Positions 32,262-48,579 of a stretch of 52,412 bases of DNA are shown here, piece after piece. The position numbers were made by a program, and so were the translations under genes. Origin of the DNA: Parafrankia irregularis. Lineage in GTDB: Bacteria > Actinomycetota > Actinomycetes > Frankiales > Frankiaceae. The notes beneath the pieces are model-generated. The model did no database searches, was not told where the DNA came from, and saw only the letters and a program-made list of their open reading frames with translations. The DNA is taken from assembly GCF_001536285.1 (NCBI RefSeq), contig NZ_FAOZ01000045.1, forward strand, positions 1 through 52,412. Reading direction: 5' to 3'. The stretch's first letter is position 1. The number at the start of each line of letters is the position of its first letter.

Positions 32262-32346
32262 GTCCGGGTGGCGGAATGGCAGACGCGCTAGCTTGAGGTG
32301 CTAGTGCCCTTTAACGGGCGTGGGGGTTCAAGTCCCCCCTCGGACA
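32262..32346 (+). tRNA. tRNA-Leu (GAG)
   Basis: An 85-base cloverleaf is visible. The acceptor GTCCGGG pairs with CTCGGAC (one G-T), discriminator A at 32346. The anticodon stem CTAGC/GCTAG encloses loop TTGAGGT with anticodon GAG. A long variable arm (TGCCCTTTAACGGGCG) is typical of leucine tRNAs. The T arm is GGGGGTTCAAGTCCCCC. CCA is not encoded. The 3' 19 bases overlap, antisense, the end of the serine integrase gene, so this is the insertion site of the neighbouring element. Confidence 0.95.
32328..32346. other. Probable left attachment site (attL) core in the tRNA 3' end
   Basis: The overlap between the tRNA-Leu 3' end and the integrase stop region is where an element that rebuilds the tRNA would cross over. 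I did not find a second copy of the T-arm/acceptor sequence to the right within the window, so the core length is unknown and the partner site is probably outside. Confidence 0.5.
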
Positions 32347-33998
32347 CGTTCCATTACCCCACGGTAACTTGTGTCGATCTTCATGTCGGCCCTTACCGTG
32401 GAGGTCGTGGGGTGGTAGGTCAGGCGTAGCTGGAGTGAGCGGTACAGATCCGCCTTCTCTGCCGGCTCCGCTTCCGCCAAGGCGCTGGCGATGTCGCCCA
32501 GCGACTCCACGATCTCACTGATCTCCTCGCGTGTCAGCTTCCCTGTGTCGTTCTTGTTTGCCTCACGCAGCTCCCGCTCGGCGGCGGTCTTCTCGGCCTG
32601 TGCCTGGGCGATCCATCCGGTCACGACCACCGGGTCGGCCCCCGCGTCCAGGGCGGCCCGGTACCTCGTGAGTTTGGCGTTGACTTCCTCGATCGTCTGG
32701 CGGGCGCGCTGGACGGCCCGATCGTCCTCGGAGGGACCCTCCTGCGCGGCCACCATGGCGTCCAGGGTCTCGGCCAGCCGGGGTGGCCTGAGCGTGTCCG
32801 CGAGCCACCTGTCGAGCGCGGGGACGAGGACGTCCTCGCGGACGTAGACGTTCGCCTGATGCGCGATCGTGTTGGCCAGGGCGTATTCCTGTGGGTAGCG
32901 GCACCGGTAGTAGGCCTCCCCGCGGACAGTGTGGCCCTGCATCTTGCGATCGCAGACACCGCAGTGAACCGCGCCGCGCAGGGCGTACGGCTGGCGTGTC
33001 CGCGGGGTCTTCTGGTCACCTGCTCCTCTCCCCCGGCCGGCGAGAAGCTGCTGCGCCTGGGTGAACGTCTCGATGTCGATGATCTCCGGGTGGACCGCCT
33101 CCTCCGACCAGATCCACGTCTCCGCGGAGTTCCACCGCAGCTTGGTGGTGTGGCCGAGGCTGACATCCTCGACGTCGAGGAGCACCTCGTCCTTACGCTG
33201 GCGGTTCCAGACCTGCCGCCCGGTGTAGCGGGGGTTCGTCAGGATCGCCCGGACGGCCCCCTTCGACCACGCCTTCCCGCTGCGATGGCTGTTACGGGCA
33301 GGATCATGGGCGGACGGACTGGGGATGCCGTCCCTCGTCAGTCCTTCCGCGATCGCGAAGATGCCGCGGCTGCGGAGGAACTCGACGAAGATCCGAACGA
33401 CGACGGGTACGGCCACCTCGTCCAGTGCGAGGCCGTGGAGCTGCCGGCCGTCAGCGGCCTTGGACGGGTTCGGATGCGGGCCCAGATCGATCAGCCGATA
33501 GCCGTACGGGGGTCTGCCGCCGAGGAAGCGGCCTTCCACCTTGGCCTGGGCGGCCATCGCCGCGCGCACCCGCACCTTTACCCGGTTGCGTTCCCCTTTG
33601 GACATCCCACCGAACACCGACATGATGAGGTCGTGGGCCTCGTTGTCGGGATCGATCGGCCCACCGACCTCGGGTACCCACAGGGGTACCTGGTAGTGAC
33701 TGAACAGTGGGAAGACAAGGCCGAACTGGTTACCGTAGAAGGCGCGCTGCGGCTCACCGATGACCACCGCCTCGAATCCGCGGCGAGGATCTTTAAGGTC
33801 CTGGAGGAGTTTGTTGGCCATGGGGCGCCGCTGCCAGGGAAGGGCGCGGGACTGGCCGGCGTCGAAGTATTCCGCGACGATCTCACCGCCATGTGGCTCG
33901 ATCAGCGCCTTGGCCCGGTTCATCTGCCACGCCCGCGAGGACTCGGGATCCTGGTTGTCCTCCGTGGAGCATCGACCCTCGAACGCGAACCTGATCAT
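32328..33998 (-). CDS. Large serine recombinase (integrase of the element)
   Basis: The product is 556 aa. The N-terminal resolvase domain carries S11 in GRCSTED as the likely nucleophile and arginines in QSRALPWQRRP. The recombinase domain includes GRPPYGYRL, AIAEGLTRDGIPSP and ILTNPRYTGRQVWNR. A zinc ribbon follows with CGVCDRK and YRCRYP. A coiled-coil stretch (AQAEKTAAERELREANKND) precedes the tail. These are the domains of phiC31-like integrases in normal order. The last residues RGGT are encoded by the complement of the tRNA-Leu 3' end. ATG 33998 has GAGAGAGG upstream. The gene points toward the chromosome, as element-end integrases do. Confidence 0.92.
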   Translation of the reverse strand: MIRFAFEGRCSTEDNQDPESSRAWQMNRAKALIEPHGGEIVAEYFDAGQSRALPWQRRPMANKLLQDLKDPRRGFEAVVIGEPQRAFYGNQFGLVFPLFSHYQVPLWVPEVGGPIDPDNEAHDLIMSVFGGMSKGERNRVKVRVRAAMAAQAKVEGRFLGGRPPYGYRLIDLGPHPNPSKAADGRQLHGLALDEVAVPVVVRIFVEFLRSRGIFAIAEGLTRDGIPSPSAHDPARNSHRSGKAWSKGAVRAILTNPRYTGRQVWNRQRKDEVLLDVEDVSLGHTTKLRWNSAETWIWSEEAVHPEIIDIETFTQAQQLLAGRGRGAGDQKTPRTRQPYALRGAVHCGVCDRKMQGHTVRGEAYYRCRYPQEYALANTIAHQANVYVREDVLVPALDRWLADTLRPPRLAETLDAMVAAQEGPSEDDRAVQRARQTIEEVNAKLTRYRAALDAGADPVVVTGWIAQAQAEKTAAERELREANKNDTGKLTREEISEIVESLGDIASALAEAEPAEKADLYRSLQLRLTYHPTTSTVRADMKIDTSYRGVMERVRGGT

Positions 33999-35114: not shown

Positions 35115-35915
35115 CTAGGCGGCCGAGTGGGGCGAGGCGTCGAGGGCGGCGCGCGCCGGCGATGGGTCCGGCGGTCGCGGATCGTGCGCTCGCTGACCGT
35201 CGAGGCGGAAGACGATCACGTCCTGGTGGACCGGATAGGCCCGTGCTCTCAGCGGCGGTCGGTCGGTGCCGAGATCCCGTGTGTAGGGGACGGCGGTGAG
35301 CGCGACGACCCGCTGCACAGGTCGCCAGCCGGTGTCCCGGCCGGCGACGGCGACCTGACTGGCCAGATCCATCCCGCCGCCGACGTGGTACGCGGCGATG
35401 ACGACGAGGTGCCCGCCGGGCCGAAGCAGACCCTTGTACGTGGCCAGCTGTTCGCGTAGCCGGTCCCCGGCCGGACCCGCCGGGTCGGCGGGGTCGGGTG
35501 GTCCGATCGCGGTCAGGACCAGGTCGACCGGTCCGAGTCCGGTCCAGGACTCGGGGTTGGGCAGCCGGTCGAGGATCATGCCGTCGCCGCGAGCGCCGCG
35601 GTCCTTCGCCCGGGTGAGCGCGGCGCGGGCGGCCTCCCACCGGCCGGGGTCGGTAGTGATGCCGACGGCGTGACGGCGGGCGTGCACGGCCTCGGTCACG
35701 ACGGCTCCCGGCTCGCAGTCCGGGTCACAGATGGTGTCTCCGGGCCGGCTGTAGACCGCGATCGCGTAGGCGGCTACCGCCGGGGAAATCGGCGCACCCC
35801 CGGGTGGCAGAGGCGGTCCGCTGGCCTGGCCGGTGGCGATGCTGTGTCGACCGGTGGACCAGACCGTCGCCAACTGGCCGTCGTGGCGCCCTGTCTGTGG
35901 GGCCGTACCGGTCAT
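35115..35915 (-). CDS. Degenerate DNA-methyltransferase-like protein (copy 1)
   Basis: The product is 266 aa. GDTICDPDCEPGAVVTEAV followed by HAVGITTDP resembles the SAM-binding motif I and the next acidic strand of TRM11-like and amino-DNA methyltransferases. The catalytic motif IV position reads VDLVLTAIGPPD, where active enzymes have D/N/S-P-P-Y, so activity is doubtful. LLRPGGHLVVIAAYH is the usual following strand. The beginning (GQLATVWSTGRHS) is similar to the beginning of the upstream gene, so the two are paralogues. ATG 35915 overlaps the upstream stop (ATGA). Confidence 0.6.
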   Translation of the reverse strand: MTGTAPQTGRHDGQLATVWSTGRHSIATGQASGPPLPPGGAPISPAVAAYAIAVYSRPGDTICDPDCEPGAVVTEAVHARRHAVGITTDPGRWEAARAALTRAKDRGARGDGMILDRLPNPESWTGLGPVDLVLTAIGPPDPADPAGPAGDRLREQLATYKGLLRPGGHLVVIAAYHVGGGMDLASQVAVAGRDTGWRPVQRVVALTAVPYTRDLGTDRPPLRARAYPVHQDVIVFRLDGQRAHDPRPPDPSPARAALDASPHSAA

Positions 35916-36631
35916 CGGGGCACGCCCGACGTCGGCGACACAGCGGTGTACGCGGCGAAGAGCAGGAGATCGGTGTGCACCCGGCGGGCCACGCTTGCCC
36001 GTGGCAGAGGTCCGGGCGGCTGGTCGAGGTCGTCGAGGGAGACCTCCAACACGATGAACCGGTCGAGCAGCGCGAGCCCGTGGCCGCCGGCGGCGGCGGT
36101 CAGCTCGGCGGTGGGGTCGATCAGCCAGCCGTCAACGCTTTCGCTGCGGGTGATCACTGCCAGTATCCCGTCGGGGGTGAGCAAGCGGGCCCAGGGAACA
36201 CCGCGCACCCAGCCGGTCCGCGCCGGGTCCACGACCGTGATGACCAGCGGCCTGCGGTCGGTGTCCGGACCCTCGTCGGTGGAGTCGGGTCCGCGTCCGG
36301 ACCCGGACGGTGGCACCGCTCGGACGGCGGGCACGGTCCGGACCTGGACACGGCGGCCGAGTCGGGCCACGGCCCAGCCCGCATCAGCGTGCCGGTCCGC
36401 CGGTGTCTCGCGGCGGCCTCCAGCGGGCGCGTCCGGGCCGGGCGGGATCAGGAGCAGGACCGGGTCGCCGGGCCGGGTGTGGGTGGTGACGAGCTGTTCG
36501 ACGGCGGCCTGAAGCCAGCCGACAGGCGGCCGGGTGGGACTGTCGGGCGGGCACGTCCAGACGGTCGCCAGCCGTCCTGCGGGGATGACAGGGCGGCCGT
36601 CGCGGTCGGGGTCGGGGTCGGATACAGGCAT
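35912..36631 (-). CDS. Degenerate methyltransferase-like protein (copy 2)
   Basis: The product is 239 aa. It shares GRLATVWTCPPDSPT at the start with the downstream gene. A Rossmann-like core is suggested by GDPVLLLIPPG, RRPLVITVVDPARTG and LLTPDGILAVITRS, but the SAM-binding glycines are poorly kept and the DPPY-like motif appears as VDPART. It may be a structural or inactive partner of the next gene product, to which it is translationally coupled. It is the first gene of a minus-strand run reading toward the integrase, starting beside the repeat-rich control region. Confidence 0.5.
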   Translation of the reverse strand: MPVSDPDPDRDGRPVIPAGRLATVWTCPPDSPTRPPVGWLQAAVEQLVTTHTRPGDPVLLLIPPGPDAPAGGRRETPADRHADAGWAVARLGRRVQVRTVPAVRAVPPSGSGRGPDSTDEGPDTDRRPLVITVVDPARTGWVRGVPWARLLTPDGILAVITRSESVDGWLIDPTAELTAAAGGHGLALLDRFIVLEVSLDDLDQPPGPLPRASVARRVHTDLLLFAAYTAVSPTSGVPR

Positions 36632-36813
36632 CGAGAGAGGTTCCTTTCACGGCGAGCGTGTTTTCGCGGCCGTAAAGAGAGACCGTCTCCTGGGCATATC
36701 TCGGACGCCAGCCCGGCGACTTTTTCCAAGATTTTTCCTGCTGGGAAGCGCCTAGTCCGACCGGACCATTGATCGCTGGCAGATCGCTGGGCAGCACCCC
36801 GAAAGGCCGTCGG

Positions 36814-36837
36814 AATCTTCTTCAAGATTTTTTTTCT
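36814..36837 (+). terminator. AT hairpin with T tract
   Basis: AATCTT and AAGATT pair across CTTC and are followed by a run of Ts (36828-36835). It is a classic but weak intrinsic terminator shape, unusual in this GC-rich context. Confidence 0.4.
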
Positions 36838-36985
36838 GGCGCCGCCGTCCGTCGGCCACAAAGCCCGGAGGCGGTGCCCAGCGATCTTCGTGATATGCAC
36901 ATCACAGCAGGTCACGGCCCTGCTGTGCGGGCTCACGTTCCCGCTGGCGCCGCCCCGACCTTGGGGCTGGCAGGAGCATAAAATC

Positions 36986-37025
36986 AAGATCGCTGTGCGC
37001 CTTCTGGGCGCTAGCGATCTTTTCT
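36986..37025 (+). terminator. Strong hairpin inside the control region
   Basis: AAGATCGCT/AGCGATCTT and inner GCGCC/GGCGC form a nearly continuous stem with loop TTCTG, followed by TTTTCT. It could end a short leader transcript or form a single-strand recognition hairpin for transfer. Its arms also match the repeated motif of the region. Confidence 0.6.
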
Positions 37026-37120
37026 GTGCATCTACCGGAAGATCGTTCTGGCTTTTCTCTGGGCATGACATGGGTTCCTTGGTGCTGTCCGAATTTCCGT
37101 GACAGCGAAGGACGGCGGTA

Positions 37121-38002
37121 ATGCCCGAAGGAATGTCATTCTTTCCCTCCCGACCGGCCGGCCGTGGCGTATCCGCGCTGCCGCTGGTGACCTTGCGGGA
37201 CTGCTTCGGCCTCCTGGTGGCCGGGCCGGCACCGTTGGCGCTGGACGGGTCGGTGGTGGCGGGTCTGCCGGCTCGGATGGTGGCGTTGGACGAGCTGCGT
37301 GACCTGCTGCTGGCCGGCTCCTGCCCGCAGGCCGTCCGTGACACCGCGTGGGCGGTGGTGATCCGCCGTTCGCGGCGTGACGGTGGCGCGTGGACGGTCG
37401 GCGCGGCCGGGATGGCGCTGCCCGCTCTGCACGCGGTCTGCGCCCGACTCGACGGGCACAGCGACCTCGACGCCGCCGATGTGCAGGCCGAGGTGCTCAC
37501 CGGTTTCCTCGAAGCGGTGGCCACGGTGCGCCTGGACCTGCCGCGGATCGCGGTGCGGCTACGCTGGGCGGCGTACCGCGCCGGGCTGGCGCTGACCGTT
37601 CAGCAGCGGGAGGCCCCGCGTCCTGATTCGGACCTGTTCCAAACCGTCGCCGCGGCCGAGGTGGTCGAGTCCGGTTCGGGACCGGCCGGTCCCGAGCGGG
37701 TCCTCGCGGACGCGGTCGCCGCCGGGGTCCTCACCGGTACCGAAGCCGACCTGATCGCCTCGACCCGCCTGGAGGACCTCCCGGTCAGTGCCTGGGCAGC
37801 CCGCCACGCGACCGCGCCCCGCCAGGCGTCCCGGCTGCGCGAGCGGGCCGAACGGCGTCTCGTCGACCACCTCGCCGCCCCGGCGGCCCCCGGCCGGGCC
37901 CCGCATCCGCCGGCCGGCGAGCCTCCGCCCCGGCCCTATCGACCGGCCGGTGCCGCCGGTTCCCTCGCGCCGGCCCGTGCGGTCGCGGGGGTGCTGGCAT
38001 GA
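37121..38002 (+). CDS. Sigma-factor-like protein at the head of the transfer operon
   Basis: The product is 293 aa. The C-terminal part, TEADLIASTRLEDLPVSAWA and then RQASRLRERAERRLVDHL, resembles the region 4 helix-turn-helix of sigma-70 factors. The N-terminal two thirds are helical, with LPALHAVCARLDGHSDLDAADV and VRLRWAAYRAGLAL like the scaffolds of sigma-like proteins in actinobacterial mobile elements. The end is Pro-rich. ATG 37121 has AAGGA eight bases upstream. It overlaps the pilin gene by four bases. It may direct transcription of the element itself from the preceding control region; this is inference. Confidence 0.55.
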   Translation: MPEGMSFFPSRPAGRGVSALPLVTLRDCFGLLVAGPAPLALDGSVVAGLPARMVALDELRDLLLAGSCPQAVRDTAWAVVIRRSRRDGGAWTVGAAGMALPALHAVCARLDGHSDLDAADVQAEVLTGFLEAVATVRLDLPRIAVRLRWAAYRAGLALTVQQREAPRPDSDLFQTVAAAEVVESGSGPAGPERVLADAVAAGVLTGTEADLIASTRLEDLPVSAWAARHATAPRQASRLRERAERRLVDHLAAPAAPGRAPHPPAGEPPPRPYRPAGAAGSLAPARAVAGVLA

Positions 38003-38418
38003 GCCCGACCCCACCAGAAAACATCCGCGTCCCGCGTCCGGCCCGGCGGGTCGGATGGCGTCGGGTGGTCCTGCTCGTCGCTGTCGTGGGCGTGTTCGTC
38101 CTGGCCGGCGCCGTGGCGGCGTTCGCGGTGTCACCGTCACCGTCGGTGTCTCCAGGAGTACCACTGGTGCCGGCGGTGCCGGTGGCACCCGATCTGGACA
38201 CGGTCCTGACCAACGTCCGCAACTGGATCATGGGGATTCTGGCGCTGCTGGCGACGACGTTCCTGAGCGTCGGGGGCGTGCGCTACCTGATCTCCAACGG
38301 GGAGCCGAGCGAGGTCGGTAAGGCCAAGGACGCGTTCCGCAACGCTGGCTGGGGTTACGGGCTGACCGCGCTCGCACCGGTCGTCGTCGGGGTCCTCAAG
38401 CAGATCGTCGGGGGCTAG
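37999..38418 (+). CDS. Type IV secretion pilin-like membrane protein (VirB2/TrbC type)
   Basis: The product is 139 aa. An arginine-rich start precedes the hydrophobic stretch VVLLVAVVGVFVLAGAVAAF and a likely cleavage near AVSPS. The mature part has two membrane helices (IMGILALLATTFLSVGGVRY and LTALAPVVVGVLKQIV) with the short hydrophilic loop ISNGEPSEVGKAKDAFRNA between them. This matches actinobacterial T4SS pilins. ATGA overlap with the upstream gene and three bases to the next start show a tight operon. Confidence 0.78.
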   Translation: MSPTPPENIRVPRPARRVGWRRVVLLVAVVGVFVLAGAVAAFAVSPSPSVSPGVPLVPAVPVAPDLDTVLTNVRNWIMGILALLATTFLSVGGVRYLISNGEPSEVGKAKDAFRNAGWGYGLTALAPVVVGVLKQIVGG

Positions 38419-38421
38419 GCC

Positions 38422-40668
38422 GTGATCGCCGCCTCCTGCCGCCGCGTCCAGTCCTCCGGTACCCCGGGCATGCCGCCTGCCCAGACGCGCCGCCAACTGG
38501 GCTTCTCTCGGCTGCGTGACTGCGGATGGGGCCGAGGGGCGCTGCTGGTCGGGACGGCGGCGTTCGCCCTGCTGCTGGTGGTCGTGCTGCCCGCGGTTGC
38601 CTCCGCGGCCCCCGCGCCTCCGGTCCCCGCGACCGCGCCGTCCACCGACACGCCCACCCCCGCCGGTCCGACCCCGAACGCGCAGCCTGGGCCGTCCCCG
38701 GTTCCACCGGGCCGGGAAGCGCCGTCCACACCGGCTCCCTCGGGTGGAGGTGTCACGGCCGCGCCCGACACTCCGGACACCCCGCCCGACGACACCGTCA
38801 CCGACAGCGGTGTCGGCGGTCCCGCCGAGCCGTGCCCGGCCGACGACCCGGACTGCTCCACCGCCCCGGAGGTCCCGCCGCCACCGACGCCGACACCGCA
38901 GACGACCCCGGCGGCGCCGGAAACCAGCGGTGACGGCGGCGGCGGGATCGTCGGGTGGATCACTGACGCGATCAACGGCGCGATTACCGCGTTTTTCCGC
39001 GCGCTGGTGACTGCCGCGTTGAATCCGTTGCTGGATCTGCTGGGCCGCACGTTGTTGACGACGCCGGAGCCGTCGGAGCTTCCCGCGATCGGGGAACTGT
39101 GGTCGACGTCGTGGGCGATCAGCGTTACCGCCTACGGAACGTTGATCATGTTTGGTGGGATCACGGTCATGGCGCTGGGGACGGTCCAGTCCCGTATCTC
39201 GATCAAAGAAGTCCTGCCGCGGATCCCGATCGGTTTCCTCGCCGCCGGGCTGTCGCAGTTCCTCGCGACGAAAGCCATCCAGATCGCGAACGTGCTACCG
39301 GGCGCGATCCTGAGCGACGGTCTGGACCCGGACGCCGCCGCCGAGCAGCTGAAGACCATCATCCTGGCGGCGATCGTGCCGACACCCGGCGGTGTCGGTA
39401 AGAGCATTTTCGTCATCTTCCTCGGCCTGTTCCTCGCCGGATCGGTCGTGGCGCTGCTGTGTACCTATATCGCCCGGGTCGTCATCGAGGTGGCACTCAT
39501 CGGCGCGGCACCGCTGGCGTTGGCGGGGCACGGCCATCCGCTGACCGAGAAGATGGCGTTCTGGTGGTGGCGGGCGTTCTTCGGCTGCCTGGGTATCCAG
39601 ATCGCCCAGACGTTCGTCCTGATCGCCTCCTTCAAGGTGTTCTTCACCCCGGGCGGGTTCACCATGTTCGGCCCGACGCCGGACGGGGTCGTGAACCTGC
39701 TCGCCGCGATCACCCTGATCTATTTTCTGTTCAAGATTCCGTTCTGGTTGATGCCGAGGATCGGCCACGGTGGTAGCGGCATTCTTGGTCGGGTCGTGCG
39801 CGCCTACGTCATGGGCCGGGCGCTGGGCATGCTCGGTGGCCGTTTTGGACGCGGCGGCGCCGGGCGGGCGGGCGGGCGGACTGGCCGAGGCCGCGGCGGA
39901 CGTGGAAGCGGTGGCCGCGGAGGTGGTGGCCGTGGGCGGCCCCGGCGCGGTGGTCCGGGCGGGGGGCGAGGGGGCGGATCGCCGAGCCCCTACCAACATG
40001 TCGGGGCCACCGCTACCGGGCAGTTGATGCTCCCGCTGACCCAGGTGCCTCGGGTTCGCCGCCCGGGAACGGCACGGGGTGTGCCCCGCCCGGCCCGCCC
40101 GGCCCGGCCGGCGGGTCCGGTGGGCCGGGCCCGGCCGCGGCACCGCCAGCTGACCATCCCGTTCGGTCAGGCCGTCGCCCCGGGCGGGCGGTATCTGCCC
40201 CACGGCGGCGGTGCATGGGCTGCCCGGGACGGTCAGCTGCTGCTGCCGTTCGAGGTCGACCAGCCCCGCTCTCCGACCGCGGCCCCACAGCCCATGCGGC
40301 GTCCGGCCTCGGCGCGCGCTGGTGCGGGCCGGTCTGGTCCCGGCCGGCCGGCCTCGTCTCGGCCTGCGCCGTCTCGGCCAGCACCGCCGCGGGCACTGCA
40401 GCCGGAGCTCCCGTTCGACCCCTACCGGGGCATCCGCCCGGACCGCACCGGCCAGTACGCCCTCCCGCTGGAGGGCCTGCACCGCACCCCACGCCCCGCC
40501 CGGCCGGCCCCTGCTCCGCCGACGTCGCGTCCGAGTTCGCCGCCGCGGCCGGTCCCGCCGCGGCCGGTCCCGCCGCGGCCGGTTCCGCCGCGCTACCGGC
40601 AGCAGATGTTGCCGCACATGCCCCGCCGCCCCCGCCCACCCCGGAACGGAAGTGATCAGCCGCGATGA
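38422..40668 (+). CDS. VirB6/TrbL-like channel protein with RGG and QLxLPF repeat tail
   Basis: The product is 748 aa. A signal-like segment (ALLVGTAAFALLLVVVLPA) leads into a long Pro/Thr-rich linker to about residue 170. At least six hydrophobic segments follow between about 185 and 455, including VVALLCTYIARVVIEVALI and NLLAAITLIYFLF, as in VirB6/TrbL inner-membrane channel proteins. After residue 475 comes an Arg-Gly-rich tract, then a Pro/Arg-rich tail with short motifs QLMLPL (534), QLTIPF (576), QLLLPF (605), ELPF (662) and QYALPL (678), and three PRPVP units. The start GTG 38422 is three bases after the pilin stop. Confidence 0.75.
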   Translation: MIAASCRRVQSSGTPGMPPAQTRRQLGFSRLRDCGWGRGALLVGTAAFALLLVVVLPAVASAAPAPPVPATAPSTDTPTPAGPTPNAQPGPSPVPPGREAPSTPAPSGGGVTAAPDTPDTPPDDTVTDSGVGGPAEPCPADDPDCSTAPEVPPPPTPTPQTTPAAPETSGDGGGGIVGWITDAINGAITAFFRALVTAALNPLLDLLGRTLLTTPEPSELPAIGELWSTSWAISVTAYGTLIMFGGITVMALGTVQSRISIKEVLPRIPIGFLAAGLSQFLATKAIQIANVLPGAILSDGLDPDAAAEQLKTIILAAIVPTPGGVGKSIFVIFLGLFLAGSVVALLCTYIARVVIEVALIGAAPLALAGHGHPLTEKMAFWWWRAFFGCLGIQIAQTFVLIASFKVFFTPGGFTMFGPTPDGVVNLLAAITLIYFLFKIPFWLMPRIGHGGSGILGRVVRAYVMGRALGMLGGRFGRGGAGRAGGRTGRGRGGRGSGGRGGGGRGRPRRGGPGGGRGGGSPSPYQHVGATATGQLMLPLTQVPRVRRPGTARGVPRPARPARPAGPVGRARPRHRQLTIPFGQAVAPGGRYLPHGGGAWAARDGQLLLPFEVDQPRSPTAAPQPMRRPASARAGAGRSGPGRPASSRPAPSRPAPPRALQPELPFDPYRGIRPDRTGQYALPLEGLHRTPRPARPAPAPPTSRPSSPPRPVPPRPVPPRPVPPRYRQQMLPHMPRRPRPPRNGSDQPR
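40546..40595. repeat. 15-bp tandem repeat encoding PRPVP units
   Basis: About three copies of CCGCCGCGGCCGGTC (one variant with T) lie head to tail in the tail of the VirB6-like gene, in frame. Confidence 0.8.
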
Positions 40669-41957
40669 CCCATCCGGTAGTGATTCCCGCCGACGTTGAT
40701 CGTGAGGACCGGATCGTGGCGAACCTGACCGCCCGCCAGGTCCTGATCCTCACCCTCACCGGCATCGTGCTCTACCTGGCCTGGGCCGGAACCCGGGCCC
40801 TGCTGCCGCTGCCGGTGTTCGTCCTGCTCGCGGTGCCGGTCGCCGTGGGCGCCGGTGTCCTTGTCCTGGGCCAGCGTGACGGGCTGTCGCTGGATCGGCT
40901 GCTGTTCGCCGCTGTCCGCCAGCGGACCAGCCCGCGGCATCGGATCAACGCCCCCGAAGGGATGATCCCGCCACCGTCGTGGCTGGCCGCCCGCGCCACC
41001 GGCGGCCCCGATGAACGGAGATCGGCCGCCGGCGGGCAGAGCGCGGCACCGCTGCGGCTGCCGGCCCGCACCGTCACCGGCCAGGCCGGGGTCGGGGTGA
41101 TCGACCTCGGTGTGGACGGGCTGGCCGTGGTCGCCGTCGCCTCCACGATCAACTTCGCGCTGCGCACACCGGATGAGCAGGACGGGCTGGTCGCCGTGTT
41201 CGCCCGCTGGTTGCACAGTCTGACCGCGCCGGTGCAGATCCTGGTGCGGGCCATGCCCGCGGACCTGTCCGGCCAGATCCATCTGCTCGACGATGCCGCC
41301 GAGCAGATGCCCCATCCGGCGCTCGCGCGCGCCGCCCGCGAACACGCCACCTACCTGGCGCAGCTCGCCGACGAGATGCAGCTCCTCACCCGCCAGGTGC
41401 TGCTGGTCCTGCGTGAACCGCTCGCCGCCGCCGGACCGGTCGATGGGCTCGGCGGCGCCTCCCCGCTGGCCGCGCTGTCCGGCCGGCGGGCGGCGGCCCG
41501 CGACGCCCGCCACGTCGGGGCCGCTGCCCGCCGGGCCGCGCACATCCGGCTCGCCCGCCGCCTCGCCGAGGCCACCGACCTGCTCGCCCCCGCCGGGATC
41601 GTTGTCACTCCGCTGGACGCGGGCACGGCGACGAGCGTGCTGGCCGCCGCCTGCAACCCCGCCGGCCTGGTACCCCCGGCGGCGCTCGCCGCCCCCGACG
41701 AGGTCATCACCGCCGACGTCCCCGAGCCTGCCGGCGGCTACCCGGCCTACCAACCGGACATTGACGACGGCTTCCTGGATGACGCCGGGTTCGACGACCC
41801 GGGCCCGGTGGCTGACCCCGGCTACGACGACCCGTTCGACGACGCCGACGACTCCGACTTCTGGGACCCACCGGCACCGCGCCCGCCCGCCGGGCGATCC
41901 GACGACAGCTCCCGACGGCCCGCACGACCCACAACCCGGAGAGGACACCGCCGATGA
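40665..41957 (+). CDS. PrgI-family (VirB3-like) protein with extended C-terminus
   Basis: The product is 430 aa. Residues about 1-75 match PrgI/VirB3-type subunits: VVIPADVDREDRIVANLTAR, then two adjacent membrane segments (QVLILTLTGIVLYLAWAG, LPVFVLLAVPVAVGAGVLVL) and GLSLDRLLF. The long rest is soluble and contains VGVIDLGVDGLAVVAVAST, as in actinobacterial fused versions that accompany VirB4. The C-terminal 60 residues are highly acidic (DIDDGFLDDAGFDDPG, then more Asp). It overlaps both neighbours by ATGA, so stoichiometric production with the VirB4 ATPase is likely. Confidence 0.8.
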   Translation: MTHPVVIPADVDREDRIVANLTARQVLILTLTGIVLYLAWAGTRALLPLPVFVLLAVPVAVGAGVLVLGQRDGLSLDRLLFAAVRQRTSPRHRINAPEGMIPPPSWLAARATGGPDERRSAAGGQSAAPLRLPARTVTGQAGVGVIDLGVDGLAVVAVASTINFALRTPDEQDGLVAVFARWLHSLTAPVQILVRAMPADLSGQIHLLDDAAEQMPHPALARAAREHATYLAQLADEMQLLTRQVLLVLREPLAAAGPVDGLGGASPLAALSGRRAAARDARHVGAAARRAAHIRLARRLAEATDLLAPAGIVVTPLDAGTATSVLAAACNPAGLVPPAALAAPDEVITADVPEPAGGYPAYQPDIDDGFLDDAGFDDPGPVADPGYDDPFDDADDSDFWDPPAPRPPAGRSDDSSRRPARPTTRRGHRR

Positions 41958-43837
41958 GCAGACGAACCCGACGCCAGGCCCAGGCTCTCGTTCCGTCGCC
42001 AGCGGCGGTGGATGCAGCCGCGGCGGCGTTCATCCCGGACGCGCTGTCCATCGCGCCCCGCCACCTGGACGTGGGCGGGGACTTCCTGGCCACGATGGCG
42101 ATCACCGGCTATCCCCGCGAGGTCCACGCCGGCTGGCTCGCCCCGCTCCTGACCTACCCCGGCCGGGTCGACGTCGCCGTGCATGTCGAACCGATCGACC
42201 CGGTCACCTCGGCGAACCGGCTCCGCCGACAGTTGTCCAAACTCGAATCGGGCCGGCAGCTCGGTGACGAGCACGGCCGGCTGATCGACCCGCAGGTCGA
42301 GGCCGCGACCGAGGACGCCTACGACCTGTCCGCCCGCGTCGCCCGCGGCGAAGGCAAACTCTTCAGACTCGGCCTGTACCTGACCGTCCACGCGGCCAGC
42401 GAAGCCGAGCTGGCCGACGAGGTCGCCGCCGTCCGCGCACTGGCCGCCAGCCTGCTGCTCGACGCCAAACCGGTCAGCTACCGCTCCCTCCAAGGCTGGG
42501 TCAGCACCCTGCCCCTCGGGCTGGACCAGGTGCGGATGCGGCGCACCTTCGACACCGCAGCCCTGTCCGCGGCGTTCCCGTTCACCAGCCCGGATCTGCC
42601 GCCCACCGACCCGACGTCGCTGGCCCCGACCGGCGTGTTCTACGGGCTGAACGTCGCCAGTAACGGACTGGTCTACTGGGACCGGTTCGGCGACGTCGAC
42701 AACCACAACGCGGTCCTCCTCGGCCGCTCCGGCGCCGGCAAGAGCTATCTGGTCAAACTCGAACTCCTGCGCTCGCTGTACCGGGGCATCGAGATCCACG
42801 TACTCGACCCCGAGGACGAGTACGCCCGCCTCGCCACCGCGGTCGGCGGCAGCTACCTGCACCTCGGCGGCGACGGGGTACGCATCAACCCGTTCGACCT
42901 CCCGATCCAGACCACCCCCGACGGCCGGCGGACCACACCCCGCGACGCGCTGGTGCGCCGCAGCCTGTTCCTGCACACCGTCATCTCGGTGCTGGTCGGC
43001 CAGCTGACGGCGACCGAACGCGCAGCCCTCGACACGGCGATCACCGCCACCTACCAGGCGGCGGGAATCAACTCCGACCCGCGCAGCTGGGGCCGACCGG
43101 CGCCGCTGCTGGCGGATCTCGCCACCACGCTCGCCCGCTCCGACGACCCGGCAGCGGTGGCACTCGGTGCCCGCCTGCACCCCTACACGGCGGGGGCGTT
43201 CTCGGGCCTGTTCGACGGGCCGACCACCGGCAGCGGCGACGGCCACCTGGTCGTCTACTCGCTGCGCGACCTGGCCGACGAACTCAAGCCGATCGGGACG
43301 CTGCTTGTGCTCGACGCCGTGTGGCGGCGGGTGTCCAACCCCGCCGACCGCCGGCCCCGCCTCGTCGTGGTCGACGAAGCCTGGCTGCTGATGCGCCAGC
43401 CCGCCGGCGCGGACTTCCTGTTCCGCATGGCCAAGTCCTCCCGCAAACACTGGGCGGGGCTCACCGTCGCCACCCAGGACACCGCCGACGTGCTGGCCAC
43501 CGATCTCGGCCGGGCGATCGTCACCAACGCCGCCACCCAGATCCTGCTCCGCCAGGCGCCCCAGGTGGCCGACGAGATCACCGCCGTGTTCGACCTGTCC
43601 GAGGGCGAGCGGCAGTTCCTGCTCTCCGCCGACCGCGGTCAAGGACTCCTCGCGGCCGGGGTACAGCGAGTCGCTTTCCAAGCCTTGGCCTCGGACGTCG
43701 AGCACCGCCTGGTCACCACAAACCCGGCCGAACTCGCCGCCGAAACCGACGACCCGGGCGACGACAGCTTCCTCAATCTTGCCGTACCGGCTGATCCGGG
43801 CGACGACGACGGCCAGATCTACCTCGACCCCGCCTGA
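41954..43837 (+). CDS. VirB4-like T4SS ATPase
   Basis: The product is 627 aa. The Walker A motif GRSGAGKS is at about residues 257-264 after VDNHNAVLL. VLDPEDEYARLATAVGG follows, as is usual in VirB4/TraE/ConE. Walker B is RLVVVDEAWLLM, and later WAGLTVATQDTADVL and TNAATQILLRQAP are VirB4 hallmarks. The N-terminal quarter is the smaller VirB4 domain that contacts VirB3. It powers pilus assembly and substrate transfer at the inner membrane. Translation is coupled to the PrgI-like gene. Confidence 0.92.
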   Translation: MSRRTRRQAQALVPSPAAVDAAAAAFIPDALSIAPRHLDVGGDFLATMAITGYPREVHAGWLAPLLTYPGRVDVAVHVEPIDPVTSANRLRRQLSKLESGRQLGDEHGRLIDPQVEAATEDAYDLSARVARGEGKLFRLGLYLTVHAASEAELADEVAAVRALAASLLLDAKPVSYRSLQGWVSTLPLGLDQVRMRRTFDTAALSAAFPFTSPDLPPTDPTSLAPTGVFYGLNVASNGLVYWDRFGDVDNHNAVLLGRSGAGKSYLVKLELLRSLYRGIEIHVLDPEDEYARLATAVGGSYLHLGGDGVRINPFDLPIQTTPDGRRTTPRDALVRRSLFLHTVISVLVGQLTATERAALDTAITATYQAAGINSDPRSWGRPAPLLADLATTLARSDDPAAVALGARLHPYTAGAFSGLFDGPTTGSGDGHLVVYSLRDLADELKPIGTLLVLDAVWRRVSNPADRRPRLVVVDEAWLLMRQPAGADFLFRMAKSSRKHWAGLTVATQDTADVLATDLGRAIVTNAATQILLRQAPQVADEITAVFDLSEGERQFLLSADRGQGLLAAGVQRVAFQALASDVEHRLVTTNPAELAAETDDPGDDSFLNLAVPADPGDDDGQIYLDPA

Positions 43838-43874
43838 CCGCCACCCCGTCTGTAGCCGCACGGAGATCGTGACC

Positions 43875-46373
43875 ATGGACCTGTTCGCCGCGGCAGCCAC
43901 CACGCCGTCTTCACCGATCGCCACCTCCCCGGCCGACCCCTGGAGTTTCCTCCACGAGCTGGTGGACCATCTGCGGGCATCGGCGCCGGTCTGGGCACCG
44001 ATCGCTGTCCCGCTGCTCACTCTCACCGTCGTCGGCCTGCTCACCCTGCGACGGCGGCTGCGCCGCCGCTACCAGCAACGCCTCACCACCGGCGCCCGCC
44101 TCGTCACCGTCCTCGCCCCACCCACCGTCGACCCGGCCGGCGCGAACGCGCTGTGGGCGAACCTGCTCGGCCTACTCCGCCCCGGCTGGCGACGCCTGAT
44201 CGGCCAGCCACACCTGGTGTGGGAATACCAGTTCACCGCCGACGGCATCCGCATCCAGATCTGGGTCCCCGGCGTCGTCCCCGACGGCTTCGTCGAACGC
44301 GCCGTCGAAGCGGCCTGGCCCGGCGCCCACACCCGCACCATCCCCGCCCGCGCGCCACTGCCCGTACGCGCCCGGCCCGGCCGGCGGATCCTCGCCGCCG
44401 GCGGAGAACTCTGCCTCGCCCGCCCCGAAGCACTGCCCATCCGCACAGACCACGACGCAGACCCGATCCGCGCCCTGCTCGGTGCACCCGGCAACCTCGC
44501 CCGCAACCAACGCGCGACGGTGCAGATCCTGGCCCGGCCGGTCACCGGCCGCCGCGTCGCCCGATCCCGCCAGGCCGCCCGCAGGCTGCGCACCGGCGGC
44601 TCCGCACACCTAGTCGGCGGGCTGCTGGACCTGCTCACCCCCCACACCAGCCGCACCCGGCAACGCCGCCGGACAGCCACCACCACGGTGAAGACCGACC
44701 CGCAGACGTCACTGGCGCAGTCCGCGGAAGACCGCGCCATCGTCACCAAGCAACGGGGCGCGCCGTACGAGGTCCGTGTCCGCTACGCCATCGCCGCGAT
44801 ACTCGACGAACAGACCGACGAGACCACCACCGCCCAGGTGACCAGCCAGCTACGCGGCAGGGCGCACGCGATCGCGTCGGCGTTCGCGGCCTACGGCGAA
44901 CACAACTACTACCGCCGCGTCCGGCTACGCCACCCGCTGCCCGTCCTCGCCAGTCGGCAGTTCGGCCACGGCGACCTGCTCTCGGTCGCCGAACTCGGCG
45001 CACTGGCGCACCTGCCCGTGGACGAGGCAACTCCCGGCCTGCAACGCGCCGGCGCGAAAGCCGTCGCCCCACCGCCCGGCGTCTCCGGTCCGGGCCCAAA
45101 CGTCCGCCCCATCGGGCGGACCGACGCCGGGCACACGCGGCCCGTCGGTCTGCGGGTCCCCGACGCCCGCCACCACCTGCATGTCCTCGGGGCGACCGGC
45201 GCAGGAAAGTCCGAACTCCTCGCCCGCATGACCCTGGACGACGTCGCCGCCCACCGAGGGGTGGTCAACGTCGACCCGAAAGGCGACCAGATCATCGACA
45301 TCCTCGCCCGCTACCCCCTGGACGCCCTCGACCGTCTCGTCCTGTTCGACGCCGAATCGAATGCGCGACCACCCTGTCTGAACCCGCTCGACCAGCCTGA
45401 CCGGCAACGGGCCGTCGACAACCTGGTCAGCATCTTCAGCCGCGTGTACGCCGACTCGTGGGGGCCCCGCACCGAGGACATCTTCCGCGCCGGCCTGCTC
45501 ACCCTCGCCGCCCAGCCAGGCGTCCCCGTCCTCACCGACCTCCCGAAACTGCTCACCGACGCCGCCTATCGGCACCGGGCGCTCGGTGAGATCAACGATG
45601 ACATCCTGGCCGGCTTCTGGACCTGGTACGAAGCCCTCTCCGAGGCCGCCCGCGGCCACGTCGTCGCCCCGCTGATGAACAAACTCCGCGGCTTCCTGCT
45701 GAGGCCGTTCGTGCGGGCCGCGATCGCCGCCGGCCCCTCCACCGTCGACATGGACGCCGTGCTCAACGACGGCGGGGTCTGCCTGGTCCGCATCGCCCAG
45801 GACGCCCTCGGCGTCGAGACCGCCGCGCTGATGGGCTCGATCGTTGTGTCCGCGGTCTGGCAGGCCACCACCCGCCGGGCCCGCCTACCTCAAGGGAAAA
45901 GGCCAGACGCCAGCCTTTACTTGGACGAGGCGCACAATTTTCTCACTCTGCCGTACGCGTTGGAGGACATGCTCGCCGCCGCCCGTGGCTACCGGCTCGG
46001 AATCACGCTAGCGCATCAGAACCTCGTCCAGCTGCCTCGGCATCTGGAAGAGAGCATCGGCGCGAACGCCCGCTCGAAAATCTATTTCACGGTGAGCCCT
46101 GCGGACGCCAAAAGGCTCGCCCGGCACACCGAGCCCCGGCTCGCCGAGCACGACCTGGCCAACCTCGGCGTGTTCCACGCCGCCGCCCGCCTCGTCGTCG
46201 GCGGGGAGGAAGCCCCCGCCTTCACGGTCGTCACGGAGAAGCTGCCGCCACCGGTGCCGGGCCGAGCTGTCCAGATCCGCCGGGCCCTGCGCCGCCGCGC
46301 CGCCGCGCCCGCCACCCCGGCGCCCACCGGTCCGAGGCCGCAGCCCACCGCCGACCCACGCCGCGTCCCCTGA
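43875..46373 (+). CDS. VirD4/TraG-like conjugative coupling ATPase
   Basis: The product is 832 aa. An N-terminal membrane helix is present (APIAVPLLTLTVVGLLTL), followed by a large periplasmic or accessory region to about 410. Walker A is LGATGAGKSELLARM (about residues 437-451), then VNVDPKGDQIIDILARY. Walker B is SLYLDEAHNFLTLP, followed by GITLAHQNLVQLP and IYFTVSPADAKRLARHT, all typical of T4SS coupling proteins. It brings the relaxase-DNA complex to the channel. ATG 43875 was chosen with GGAG nine bases upstream; it begins 37 bases after the VirB4 stop. No FtsK/TraB-type translocase is seen, so transfer is of the single-stranded type. Confidence 0.9.
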   Translation: MDLFAAAATTPSSPIATSPADPWSFLHELVDHLRASAPVWAPIAVPLLTLTVVGLLTLRRRLRRRYQQRLTTGARLVTVLAPPTVDPAGANALWANLLGLLRPGWRRLIGQPHLVWEYQFTADGIRIQIWVPGVVPDGFVERAVEAAWPGAHTRTIPARAPLPVRARPGRRILAAGGELCLARPEALPIRTDHDADPIRALLGAPGNLARNQRATVQILARPVTGRRVARSRQAARRLRTGGSAHLVGGLLDLLTPHTSRTRQRRRTATTTVKTDPQTSLAQSAEDRAIVTKQRGAPYEVRVRYAIAAILDEQTDETTTAQVTSQLRGRAHAIASAFAAYGEHNYYRRVRLRHPLPVLASRQFGHGDLLSVAELGALAHLPVDEATPGLQRAGAKAVAPPPGVSGPGPNVRPIGRTDAGHTRPVGLRVPDARHHLHVLGATGAGKSELLARMTLDDVAAHRGVVNVDPKGDQIIDILARYPLDALDRLVLFDAESNARPPCLNPLDQPDRQRAVDNLVSIFSRVYADSWGPRTEDIFRAGLLTLAAQPGVPVLTDLPKLLTDAAYRHRALGEINDDILAGFWTWYEALSEAARGHVVAPLMNKLRGFLLRPFVRAAIAAGPSTVDMDAVLNDGGVCLVRIAQDALGVETAALMGSIVVSAVWQATTRRARLPQGKRPDASLYLDEAHNFLTLPYALEDMLAAARGYRLGITLAHQNLVQLPRHLEESIGANARSKIYFTVSPADAKRLARHTEPRLAEHDLANLGVFHAAARLVVGGEEAPAFTVVTEKLPPPVPGRAVQIRRALRRRAAAPATPAPTGPRPQPTADPRRVP

Positions 46374-46408
46374 CCACACGCCCCTCCACCGCCTTTGAAG
46401 GACTCCCG

Positions 46409-47422
46409 ATGGCCAAGCCGCTGCCGCAGCGCGCCCTCCGGGCCCCGATGCGTCCCGCCGCCCGCGTCGTCGCCGACGCCGAACACCTCACCAACCTCAC
46501 CCCCCACCTCAGCCCGCGCGACCGGTGGATCGCCCGTCTCCTCTACGAACACCGGGTCCTGACCACCCACCAGCTCGTCCAAGCCGGCTGGCCTACCCGG
46601 CGCACCGCGAACGAGAGGTTGCTCCAGCTCTACCGCTGGCGTGTCATCGACCGCTTCCAGCCGCTGAGCCCCGTGGGCGAAGGCATGCCGCCCGCGCACT
46701 ACGTCTGTGACGTCGCCGGGGCTGCGATCCTCGCCGCCGAAGACGGCGTCGACCTGGCCTCGACCGGTTACCGCCACGAGCGGGCCCTCGGGGTCGCCTA
46801 CTGGCCCCAACTCGCCCACCGTCTTGCTGTCAACGGCTTCTTCACTCATCTCATCGCCCATGCCCGCAGGCCCGACCCTGCCGGCACGCTCACCGCCTGG
46901 TGGTCCGAAACCCGCACCCGGGCCGCATTCGGCGACATCGTCCGCCCCGACGCCTACGGCCGCTGGACCAGCCGCGGCACCGACCTCGAATGGTTCCTCG
47001 AACTCGACTGGGCCACCGAACCCTACGGCCGTCTCGCCGCGAAGATCGACAAATATGGGCGGCTCGCCACCGCGACCGGCATCACCACCCCGGTCCTGTT
47101 CTGGTTCCCCACCGCCGGGCGGGAGACCCGCGCCCGCCGCGCTCTGGCCGACGCCGTCGCCGGGCTGGACCAGCCGCACACCGTCCCGGTCGCGACCACC
47201 GCCGCCACGCTCGCCCTGCCCGACGACCAGCTCGACCCAGCCCCCGCCCGCTGGCTGCCCCTCACCTCCAGCGGCGCCGGCCGGCTCACCCTCGACCAGC
47301 TGCCCCGGGCTTGGCCCCGGCTGCCCGCACCCGCGCCGGTGTCCGACCGGCCGGACGTCATCCCCGCTGGATCGGGGCTGCGCCCGCCGGCGCCGATGCC
47401 GCCCGAGAAGTACCGGGGGTGA
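46409..47422 (+). CDS. Replication-relaxation family protein
   Basis: The product is 337 aa. The N-terminal winged-helix region LSPRDRWIARLLYEHRVLTTHQL, with WPTRRTANERLLQLYRWRVI, is the start of the replication-relaxation family found in actinobacterial plasmids and elements. The centre has LAVNGFFTHLIAHAR and a nuclease-like strand pattern DIVRPDAYGRW ... LEWFLELDWATEPYGRLAAKIDKY, where D, E and K could form a PD-(D/E)xK-type active site. That would suit DNA nicking, but it is my reading, not established. The C-terminus is Pro-rich. Its stop overlaps the region where the next gene begins. Confidence 0.8.
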   Translation: MAKPLPQRALRAPMRPAARVVADAEHLTNLTPHLSPRDRWIARLLYEHRVLTTHQLVQAGWPTRRTANERLLQLYRWRVIDRFQPLSPVGEGMPPAHYVCDVAGAAILAAEDGVDLASTGYRHERALGVAYWPQLAHRLAVNGFFTHLIAHARRPDPAGTLTAWWSETRTRAAFGDIVRPDAYGRWTSRGTDLEWFLELDWATEPYGRLAAKIDKYGRLATATGITTPVLFWFPTAGRETRARRALADAVAGLDQPHTVPVATTAATLALPDDQLDPAPARWLPLTSSGAGRLTLDQLPRAWPRLPAPAPVSDRPDVIPAGSGLRPPAPMPPEKYRG

Positions 47423-48421: not shown

Positions 48422-48579
48422 AGGTGACCACGGTGTGGCTGGATAGGAATAGTGATTTTCGCTGTGTGTCCGTCCACCGTCGTAACCGAAGGGCATGGCG
48501 ACAATCAGACCACTGGATCGCGTGGAGGTTCCGGCGTGGTGAGCGCCCGTTCTCTGCGTCTGTCCGCTGGAGTAGGGCG

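Follow-up and report, generated by a model that had tools for sequence, protein, structure and literature searches.

The analyzed window, 52,412 nucleotides of Parafrankia irregularis DNA, spans a complete contig within a 9.5-Mb genome. The region under study is a gap bounded by gene starts at 36631 (-) and 37121 (+), and these ORF starts bear out the first-pass annotation, which described a gap of 489 bases between divergent operons. The gap was also called AT-rich, which is correct relative to its surroundings (60% GC vs 72-82% in the nearest 250-bp blocks outside the gap) and incorrect in absolute terms. Reading from 32 kb, the left side comprises a tRNA-Leu (32262-32347), the only Rfam match at the gathering threshold, followed by a serine recombinase gene (-), a second recombinase-like gene (-) and the two genes of the left operon. 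To the right of the gap and of the first rightward gene are genes for a T4SS pilin, a large unassigned protein, PrgI, a VirB4-like protein, a TraG/D-like protein and a PF13814 relaxase, and 3' of the latter lie an NLPC/P60 protein gene and two tyrosine recombinase genes. Based on this gene order, the gap separates two operons that diverge within a T4SS-type ICE. All features are listed in Table 1.

Two further observations concern the right side of the window. The two tandem tyrosine recombinases 3' of the NLPC gene occupy positions 48418-52331, and the first of them is 100% identical (306 residues compared) to the recombinase at 18982-19899 of L047, another ICE in the same genome, where it has the same position; thus, a recent mobile insertion or exchange is suggested. 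ARAGORN reports a tRNA-Thr at 42998-43090 (-) within the VirB4-like gene, in disagreement with Rfam, and this tRNA is probably false because it is absent from the Rfam matches at the gathering threshold.

The first left gene, 35912-36631, had a best match with an E-value of 1.2e-3, and its top matches are mostly SAM methyltransferases. Matches of the second, 35115-35915, are weak (PF01555, E 0.14; a PHROG methyltransferase, E 0.0033), and its sister copies reach PF01555 (E 7.3e-8 in L042). The NCBIfam search of both left genes gave no match. In the window type both genes appear degenerate (DPDCEPGAVV vs DPMCGIGTTLVE in L018), and the methylase motif is retained by their relatives in other subtypes. 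On the other side of the operon pair, Replic_Relax is described as a relaxase family, and PF13814 is recognised as belonging to the MobC relaxase superfamily (PMC5357655).

The product of the first rightward gene, 37121-38002, matched nothing in Pfam, NCBIfam and PHROG at the thresholds used. Its AlphaFold model was built on a 23-sequence alignment, and the best PDB matches of this model are sigma factors, with domain 2 at about residues 14-164 and domain 4 at about residues 184-254. The best 50 matches in each of two structure searches are sigma factors almost throughout (the UPF0122 protein 1xsv is one VIA match among the best 50), and a single Foldseek match has an E-value below 0.001. Domain 2 superposes on RpoS domain 2 (5h6x) over 93 residues at 2.4 A, and domain 4 on the -35-binding domain of M. 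tuberculosis SigD (3vfz) over 62 residues at 1.9 A. Whole-chain fits are mostly poor (rmsd 10-23 A), which we read as a different placement of the two domains in the model. The predicted sigma identity is made persuasive by the consistent order of the two sigma domains, since a Z score of about 10 is by itself indecisive for a helical protein.

Table 1. Features of the gap and its flanking operons (window coordinates)
Feature	Position	Strand	Basis or remark
Control region between divergent operons, putative cis-acting hub	36632..37120	.	ORF starts; kept in 10 sister regions
Second left gene, 266 aa, probable degenerate relative of N6/N4 DNA methylases	35115..35915	-	weak domain matches
First left-operon gene, 239 aa, methyltransferase-like Rossmann fold (low confidence)	35912..36631	-	model pLDDT 64
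Predicted leader hairpin covering RBS of left gene	36643..36677	-	alignment folding
A/T tract CTTTTTCCAAGATTTTTC, copy 1	36720..36737	+	conserved
Conserved block CTAGTCCGACCGGACCATTGATCGCTGGC (dyad plus box)	36752..36780	+	recognisable in 4/8 T4SS-less places
GATCGCTGGC copy or half-copy	36771-36780		sequence match
AGATCGCTGGGC box, exact	36781..36792	+	11 bp after preceding box (CTGG at 36776, 36787)
A/T tract, copy 2	36817..36836	+	conserved; 96 bp from copy 1
Inverted AGATCGCTGGGC box, exact	36876..36887	-	
CACATCACAGCAGGTCACGGCCCTGCTGTGCGG, counterpart of TCACAGCGT.GCAG.TCA block of ICEs and T4SS-less places	36898..36930	+	alignment
Inverted box pair AAGATCGCT...AGCGATCTT	36986..37021	+	
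AGATCGCTGTGC	36987-36998		1 mismatch to AGATCGCTGGGC
AGCGATCTT (inverted AAGATCGCT)	37013-37021		
AAGATCGTT, sixth copy	37039-37047		
Promoter-like array CTGG - 11 bp - CTGG - 11 bp - ATGGGTTCCT	37048..37079	+	GTGGCGTCCT in most sisters
Predicted leader hairpin covering RBS of sigma-like gene	37073..37113	+	alignment folding
Sigma-factor-like protein, 293 aa, first conjugation-operon gene	37121..38002	+	AlphaFold pLDDT 79.1
Conjugation operon	37999..47422	+	T4SS pilin, 748-aa protein, PrgI, VirB4-like, TraG/D-like, Replic_Relax
Replic_Relax (PF13814, MobC-type relaxase)	46409-47422	+	Pfam 150.8 bits

Repeat boxes, promoter-like end and leader hairpins

The five copies or half-copies of the repeat listed in the first-pass annotation are all present, at most 1 base from the positions given there. 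At zero or one mismatch, AGATCGCTGGGC has three matches in the 52-kb window, all three in the gap, and AAGATCGCT at up to one mismatch occurs five times in the gap vs at most once in any other 489-bp stretch. The most frequent 8-mer of the gap has a count of 4, reached by none of 200 dinucleotide shuffles of the gap. Window-wide, the AGATCGCTGGGC 12-mer at up to two mismatches is found 10 times vs 8.55 +/- 2.54 in shuffled sequence (35 of 100 shuffles reach this count), and AAGATCGCT at one mismatch 9 times vs 5.88 (13 of 100 shuffles reach 9). The repeats are real; their clustering is unusual, and their window-wide total is not. A raw count of the short CTGG/CTGTG cores in the gap gives 13 on the plus and 3 on the minus strand, and the spacing is exactly 11 bp in three pairs (36776/36787, 36993/37004, 37048/37059). 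The host genome contains only three exact copies of AGATCGCTGGGCA, two in the gap and one in the hitchhiker L096 described below. A host-wide regulon was considered and rejected, as AGATCGCTGGGCA at 1 mismatch has 13 genome matches vs 10 for the reversed control.

Relatives of the sigma-like protein were identified in 23 of the 35 genomes of the family, which also make up the order-level genome set. The search gave 33 places, corresponding to 30 loci, with L022, L023 and L030 (25-26% identity) outside the region analysis. Ten sister regions (L031, L032, L034-L041) possess a gap of 488-508 bp that is 61-79% identical to that of the window; L033, whose gap sequence is the same as that of L032, was dropped from this comparison, and the contigs that carry L032, L034 and L037 are just 3.5-6.4 kb long and show only part of the element. 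The more distant sister gaps are those of L042 (494 bp, 50% identity) and L043 (387 bp, 48%), and no recognisable control region was found at L014, which has a partial sigma relative. A DNA search with the gap found matches in 15 of 35 genomes (E <=0.01, weak matches included), and related contigs are also present in Frankia gtarii, Frankia tisae and Frankia sp. R82. Among plasmids, relatives are limited to one weak sigma-like match and 13 records with partial relaxase matches. In Streptomyces sp. BHT-5-2 (NZ_CP081497.1), weak relatives of the sigma-like protein (33%, at 2181886) and of the relaxase (37%, at 2190785) are separated by about 9 kb; the range of the ICE family may thus be wider than Frankia-like bacteria.

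The box is largely uniform within an element and different between elements, with five main words: GCTGGGCA, GCTGGCA, CGCTGTC, GATCTGAC and CTGACAG. The most repeated word is GCTGGGCA in L031, L032, L034, L035 and L036, with AGATCGCT and CTGGGCA as the words of the window (the count of CTGGGCA alone is reached there by 11/200 shuffles). The corresponding word is GCTGGCA in L037 and L042; CGCTGTC / GCACAGC in L038-L041 (strong in L041 and, when counted as 6-mers, also in L038-L040); GATCTGAC in L046, L047, L048, L050 and L027; CTGACA(G) in L017, L018, L029 and L049; and ATCTGAA in L045. L044 and L025 have intermediate box forms, and no over-represented word was detected in L043, a full sister ICE. 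Lack of conservation in sister elements had been named as an observation that would speak against a functional motif; the motif is in fact kept, while its exact word changes coordinately between elements.

Spacing of identical 5-mers, scored against 40 base-composition shuffles, ranks 11 bp first in the window clade (tied with 51, then 46), in the CGCTGTC clade and in the GATCTGAC-like group (22 second; 33 also), and peaks at 21 in the CTGACAG group; these scores are not independent, because members of each group are kin. Raw counts of GATC are 6 in the window gap, 5-7 in its five closest sisters and 2-7 in all 13 aligned gaps. GATC is present inside the GATCTGAC boxes and absent from the CTGACAG boxes, and a GATC methylation switch was set aside as a general rule for the latter reason.

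Toward the sigma-like gene the boxes run into a promoter-like end. Most window-type elements have the order CTGG, 11 bp, CTGG, 11 bp, GTGG, and the GATCTGAC type is equally spaced with GTCAG in place of GTGG; in both types a common TGGCGTCCT follows. The window copy is altered (ATGGGTTCCT). The promoter core with its box-box-TGG spacing stands out clearly in the majority of rows of the window type, of the GATCTGAC type and from the T4SS-less places, whereas in the window the core deviates from the consensus (ATGGGTTCC vs GTGGCGTCC). Two of the four rows of the CTGACAG group have no match to the promoter-core pattern. The CACATCACAGCAGGTCACGGCCCTGCTGTGCGG block is more than 100 bp away from this end.

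Of the two hairpins proposed earlier, the one at 36986-37021 has perfect outer arms in the window but is broken in several sisters, and it was rejected as a conserved feature. Retention in many elements is instead seen for two leader hairpins, which lie at the RBSs of the divergent genes. In the left leader, 95.9% of cells pair vs 34-54% when the hairpin is slid, and one pair is changed on both sides (11 of 13 window-type rows counted, with L042 and L043 left out); its shuffle control is weak (32/500). In the right leader, 84.1% pair vs 35-54% when slid, four pairs are changed on both sides, and 0/500 shuffles reach four of five measures, although the version slid by -3 has a covariation score of 0.166 vs 0.146 in register. 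This count rests on 15 hand-picked rows of the 32 folded, namely 11 window-type rows, three hitchhikers and L044. In L041, L043, L045 and the hitchhikers L092 and L096, which are weak rows or were left out of the count, folding is no or hardly better than that of shuffles.

Region copies at places without T4SS matches, and the GATCTGAC subtype

DNA searches with the gap and two distant matches identified eight places that carry the region (L089-L093, L095-L097), at which the pilin, VirB4 and VirD4 of the window have no match in the 11-20 kb fetched for each. Transfer genes further out are possible, because the visible element side is about 4.5 kb in L092 and 7 kb in L097. A serine integrase reaching or overlapping an antiparallel tRNA-Arg/Leu gene is present at seven of the eight places, and the exception, L091, may be a remnant. 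We refer to such elements as hitchhikers. The right-hand part of the region aligns between all eight places and the ICEs, the left block in 4/8, and BLAST pieces cover 110-430 bp depending on the query. After the promoter-like end, a short ORF starts like the ICE sigma gene clearly in L089, L090 and L095 (VPDEMFSLSPR, VLDETLSLSART vs MPDETSSLPVR of the ICE); the resemblance is weaker in L097, L092, L093 and L096 and missing in L091. Thus, the region was probably copied together with the start of that gene.

When nine ICE loci were compared with the eight places at the DNA level, the control region emerged as the recurrent shared DNA. Other shared sequences are the relaxase gene of L090, NLPC-like genes beyond the tRNA in L089, L090 and L097, and a short match in L096, whose region falls below the cut-off of this comparison and was found in other DNA searches. 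Both element ends are seen in the G031 copy only (L090), which measures 11.9 kb between two occurrences of GTGCCCCCGG, one at 4144551 and one at the tRNA-Arg (4156469), with a 10-bp core; its PF13814 relaxase gene (3835-4819 of L090) is frameshifted. For the window and seven small elements, no exact att-like direct repeat of the tRNA end of at least 14 bp (13 bp for the window) was found in the fetched DNA. Seven genomes contain window-type hitchhikers with an integrase, and a window-type ICE is also present in five of them, compared with 14 of 35 genomes overall (counting the partial ICE of G010). The last box of the hitchhiker equals that of the resident ICE in three of these five genomes (G000, G008, G009) and differs in G031 and G033. 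This co-residence is suggestive only.

Several other sites resemble parts of these elements. L094 (5169-5327; G028:C1:1124168) contains the left half of the region only, 22 kb from the complete copy of that genome, and is perhaps a remnant. At L065 (9116-9164), in the G012 hitchhiker, a lengthened form of the conserved block makes up an inverted repeat, TGCCAGCGATCAATA...TATTGATCGCTGGCA. In L113 (G027:C98:2357-2399, 4277-4350), a 43-bp repeat of the 3' end of a tRNA-Arg that is also used by small elements flanks a stretch of about 1.9 kb, which would be either a small element or what is left of one.

The GATCTGAC subtype has boxes at more than one place. In L047, one cluster is located upstream of the sigma gene (6273-6448) and a second (4600-4713) upstream of an HTH_17-like, excisionase-like gene (E 0.00098, below Pfam's cut-off) that is followed by a tyrosine integrase gene; a looser group of three boxes lies at 9255-9411. 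A second cluster is likewise found about 1.65 kb upstream in L048 and L046 (genes after the clusters were examined in L047 and L118-L120). Three elements, L118 (G000), L119 (G019) and L120 (G018), contain a serine integrase gene with an upstream box cluster, the control region, a sigma-like gene and a relaxase gene. Their sigma-like products are 49-58% identical over 126-208 residues and miss the end of domain 4, and their PF13814 relaxases (Pfam scan on L118 only) are 78-82% identical to that of L047. VirB4 and VirD4 have no match in the 18-20 kb at these loci. The integrase gene lies by a tRNA-Asp in L118 and by a tRNA-Phe in L119, and no tRNA was found in the fetched DNA of L120. All three reside in genomes with a GATCTGAC ICE, which 4/35 genomes possess; this co-residence may reflect relatedness, because all belong to one genus. 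The presence of boxes at both sigma and integrase genes argues for a regulatory role. No box array was found upstream of the window serine recombinase, therefore the two-promoter picture is limited to the GATCTGAC subtype.

A putative sigma/box control region and its relation to known systems

The sequence marks the gap as the conserved control region belonging to a mobile element that moves among Frankia-like soil bacteria. The earlier proposal of a switch is well supported by the adjoining sigma-like gene, the layout kept in sisters, the concerted box change and the GATCTGAC boxes before excisionase-like and integrase genes. We consider it likely that the gap is an element-specific sigma/box control region, probably with an oriT, that is copied by mobilizable hitchhikers. 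It would then be the master cis-acting control region of a T4SS-type ICE family in Frankia-like bacteria, and its repeated boxes, often phased by 11 bp, would be recognised by a regulator that the element itself encodes. The most likely candidate is the sigma-like protein, whose gene follows immediately downstream. We infer that domain 4 of this protein reads the box as a -35 element and that domain 2 reads the common GTGGCGTCC. The regulator would activate its own gene together with the conjugation operon, while the methyltransferase-like operon diverges on the other side. Through the region copies carried by integrative hitchhikers without a transfer machine, the ICE regulator would act on these elements as well, and each copy probably also holds the oriT needed by the MobC-type relaxase of the ICE to move them. 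In other words, smaller elements probably carry the region so that a larger ICE activates and moves them. The identity of the box binder, the promoter activity, the movement of hitchhikers and the oriT inside the region are thus predictions of this model.

An origin of transfer within the gap is plausible, because the tRNA-side elements without a transfer machine in the fetched DNA share mainly the region copies with the large elements. In addition, the GATCTGAC hitchhikers are built of integrase, region and relaxase genes, hence an oriT should be close by, probably in the region. That the region is primarily an oriT, with the boxes serving as relaxosome binding sites (bound by the winged-helix part of the MobC-type relaxase, for example) and lying near a promoter incidentally, appears quite unlikely to us. 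Such a role would suit the gap because, among the ORFs taken as genes, no other non-coding stretch of notable size lies from 35115 up to the relaxase gene. In other systems oriT lies between the tra operon and a leading region, and the layout here, with methyltransferase-like genes on the leading side, fits this arrangement. It would also suit the extent of the DNA kept at the T4SS-less places, often more than a simple promoter needs, the makeup of the GATCTGAC hitchhikers around integrase, region, sigma-like gene and relaxase, and the fact that an element encoding a PF13814 relaxase has its region copied by 8 window-type and 3 GATCTGAC-type places without transfer genes in the fetched DNA. 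However, the GATCTGAC boxes also precede an excisionase-like gene and integrase genes, positions that do not call for an oriT, the boxes run into a promoter-like core at fixed spacing, and no nick site was identified.

The boxes might instead be bound by another regulator of the element, such as one of the two methyltransferase-like proteins of the left operon, perhaps in a methylation-sensitive way at the GATC that many boxes contain, with the sigma-like protein serving the core only. GATC in the window gap, in sisters and in the GATCTGAC boxes points in this direction, as does the nature of the left genes, but the GATC-free CTGACAG boxes and the degenerate look of the window proteins make it unlikely, though still worth weighing. 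Free sigma factors usually do not bind DNA on their own, and together with the presence of up to 16 box cores this suggests another or an additional binder. An iteron-type replication origin of the excised element, also raised in the first-pass annotation, would explain repeats and two conserved A/T tracts in a GC-rich genome. We regard it as highly improbable, as the Pfam scan of 20 proteins (several of them matchless) revealed no initiator family, and the repeats are short, in both orientations and in front of genes (the GATCTGAC subtype has them at two such places). A resemblance due to chance or low complexity, given the high GC content of the genome, is in line with the insignificant window-wide enrichment of the 12-mer at two mismatches and of AAGATCGCT at one; nevertheless, its probability is negligible given the clustering, and conservation in sisters together with the concerted box change rules it out.

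The sigma/box model itself meets several contrary points: the ATGGGTTCC core in the window, the unclear core and 21-bp period of the CTGACAG group, the spacings of 51 and 46 that equal or approach 11 in the window clade, L043 with no over-represented box, L014 with no recognisable region, the left half kept in 4/8 T4SS-less copies, and the incomplete domain 4 of the GATCTGAC hitchhikers. A broader version of it can be offered only tentatively, with doubt prevailing. In that version, the ICE family runs both conjugation and excision from its own sigma factor, the box 'address' exists in at least five versions, which would let several ICEs share one cell without cross-talk, and two classes of hitchhikers have copied the matching address, one carrying little beyond the cis region and the other the cis region and a relaxase, its sigma copy decaying. 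The apparently new elements are the coordinated box change between ICE subtypes and the hitchhikers with copies. A title-level literature search, covering few subscription journals, found no description of this arrangement of control region and hitchhikers. Frankia is described as lacking effective genetic tools (PMC3218068). If the model is true, the region is a defined DNA fragment for trying to mobilise DNA in Frankia, and the subtypes provide a natural series of matched regulator-box pairs for studying the divergence of promoter specificity.

Seventeen T4SS-type ICEs were predicted in Actinobacteria, one of them in Frankia CcI3 (PMC3218068). The elements described here are likewise T4SS-based and belong to the same kind of bacteria, but they carry PF13814, whereas that survey was restricted to MOBF (TrwC) relaxases; in the part of the survey consulted, we found no mention of a control region or hitchhikers of such ICEs. 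Integrative mobilizable elements are known as iOriT and iMOB (PMC11389934), and the hitchhikers resemble them in being integrated, without mating-pair formation, and with or without a relaxase, except that here the oriT function is a prediction.

SXT/R391 ICEs move mobilizable genomic islands through oriT mimicry and SetCD-activated excision, and IncC plasmids act on SGI1 and MGIVchHai6 through the AcaCD regulon (PMC5397120). The parallel with SXT/R391 is an ICE with a master activator and islands that, having no transfer machine, copy the ICE cis region and use the ICE regulator. The present elements differ in their bacteria, in a sigma-like factor instead of SetCD, in a PF13814 relaxase, in serine integrases at tRNA genes and in boxes that vary between ICE subtypes, with the oriT and activation predicted from sequence. 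The parallel with IncC is that sites of the helper's activator precede island excision genes. The bacteria, proteins, relaxase and integrases differ as for SXT/R391, and, unlike in IncC, the control region of the helper itself can be aligned to the hitchhiker region, in stretches of 110-430 bp depending on the query. For SXT and IncC helpers, conjugation of hitchhikers by way of copied cis sites is already known (PMC5397120), and Frankia-like actinobacteria appear to use such a scheme with different proteins and a sigma-like regulator.
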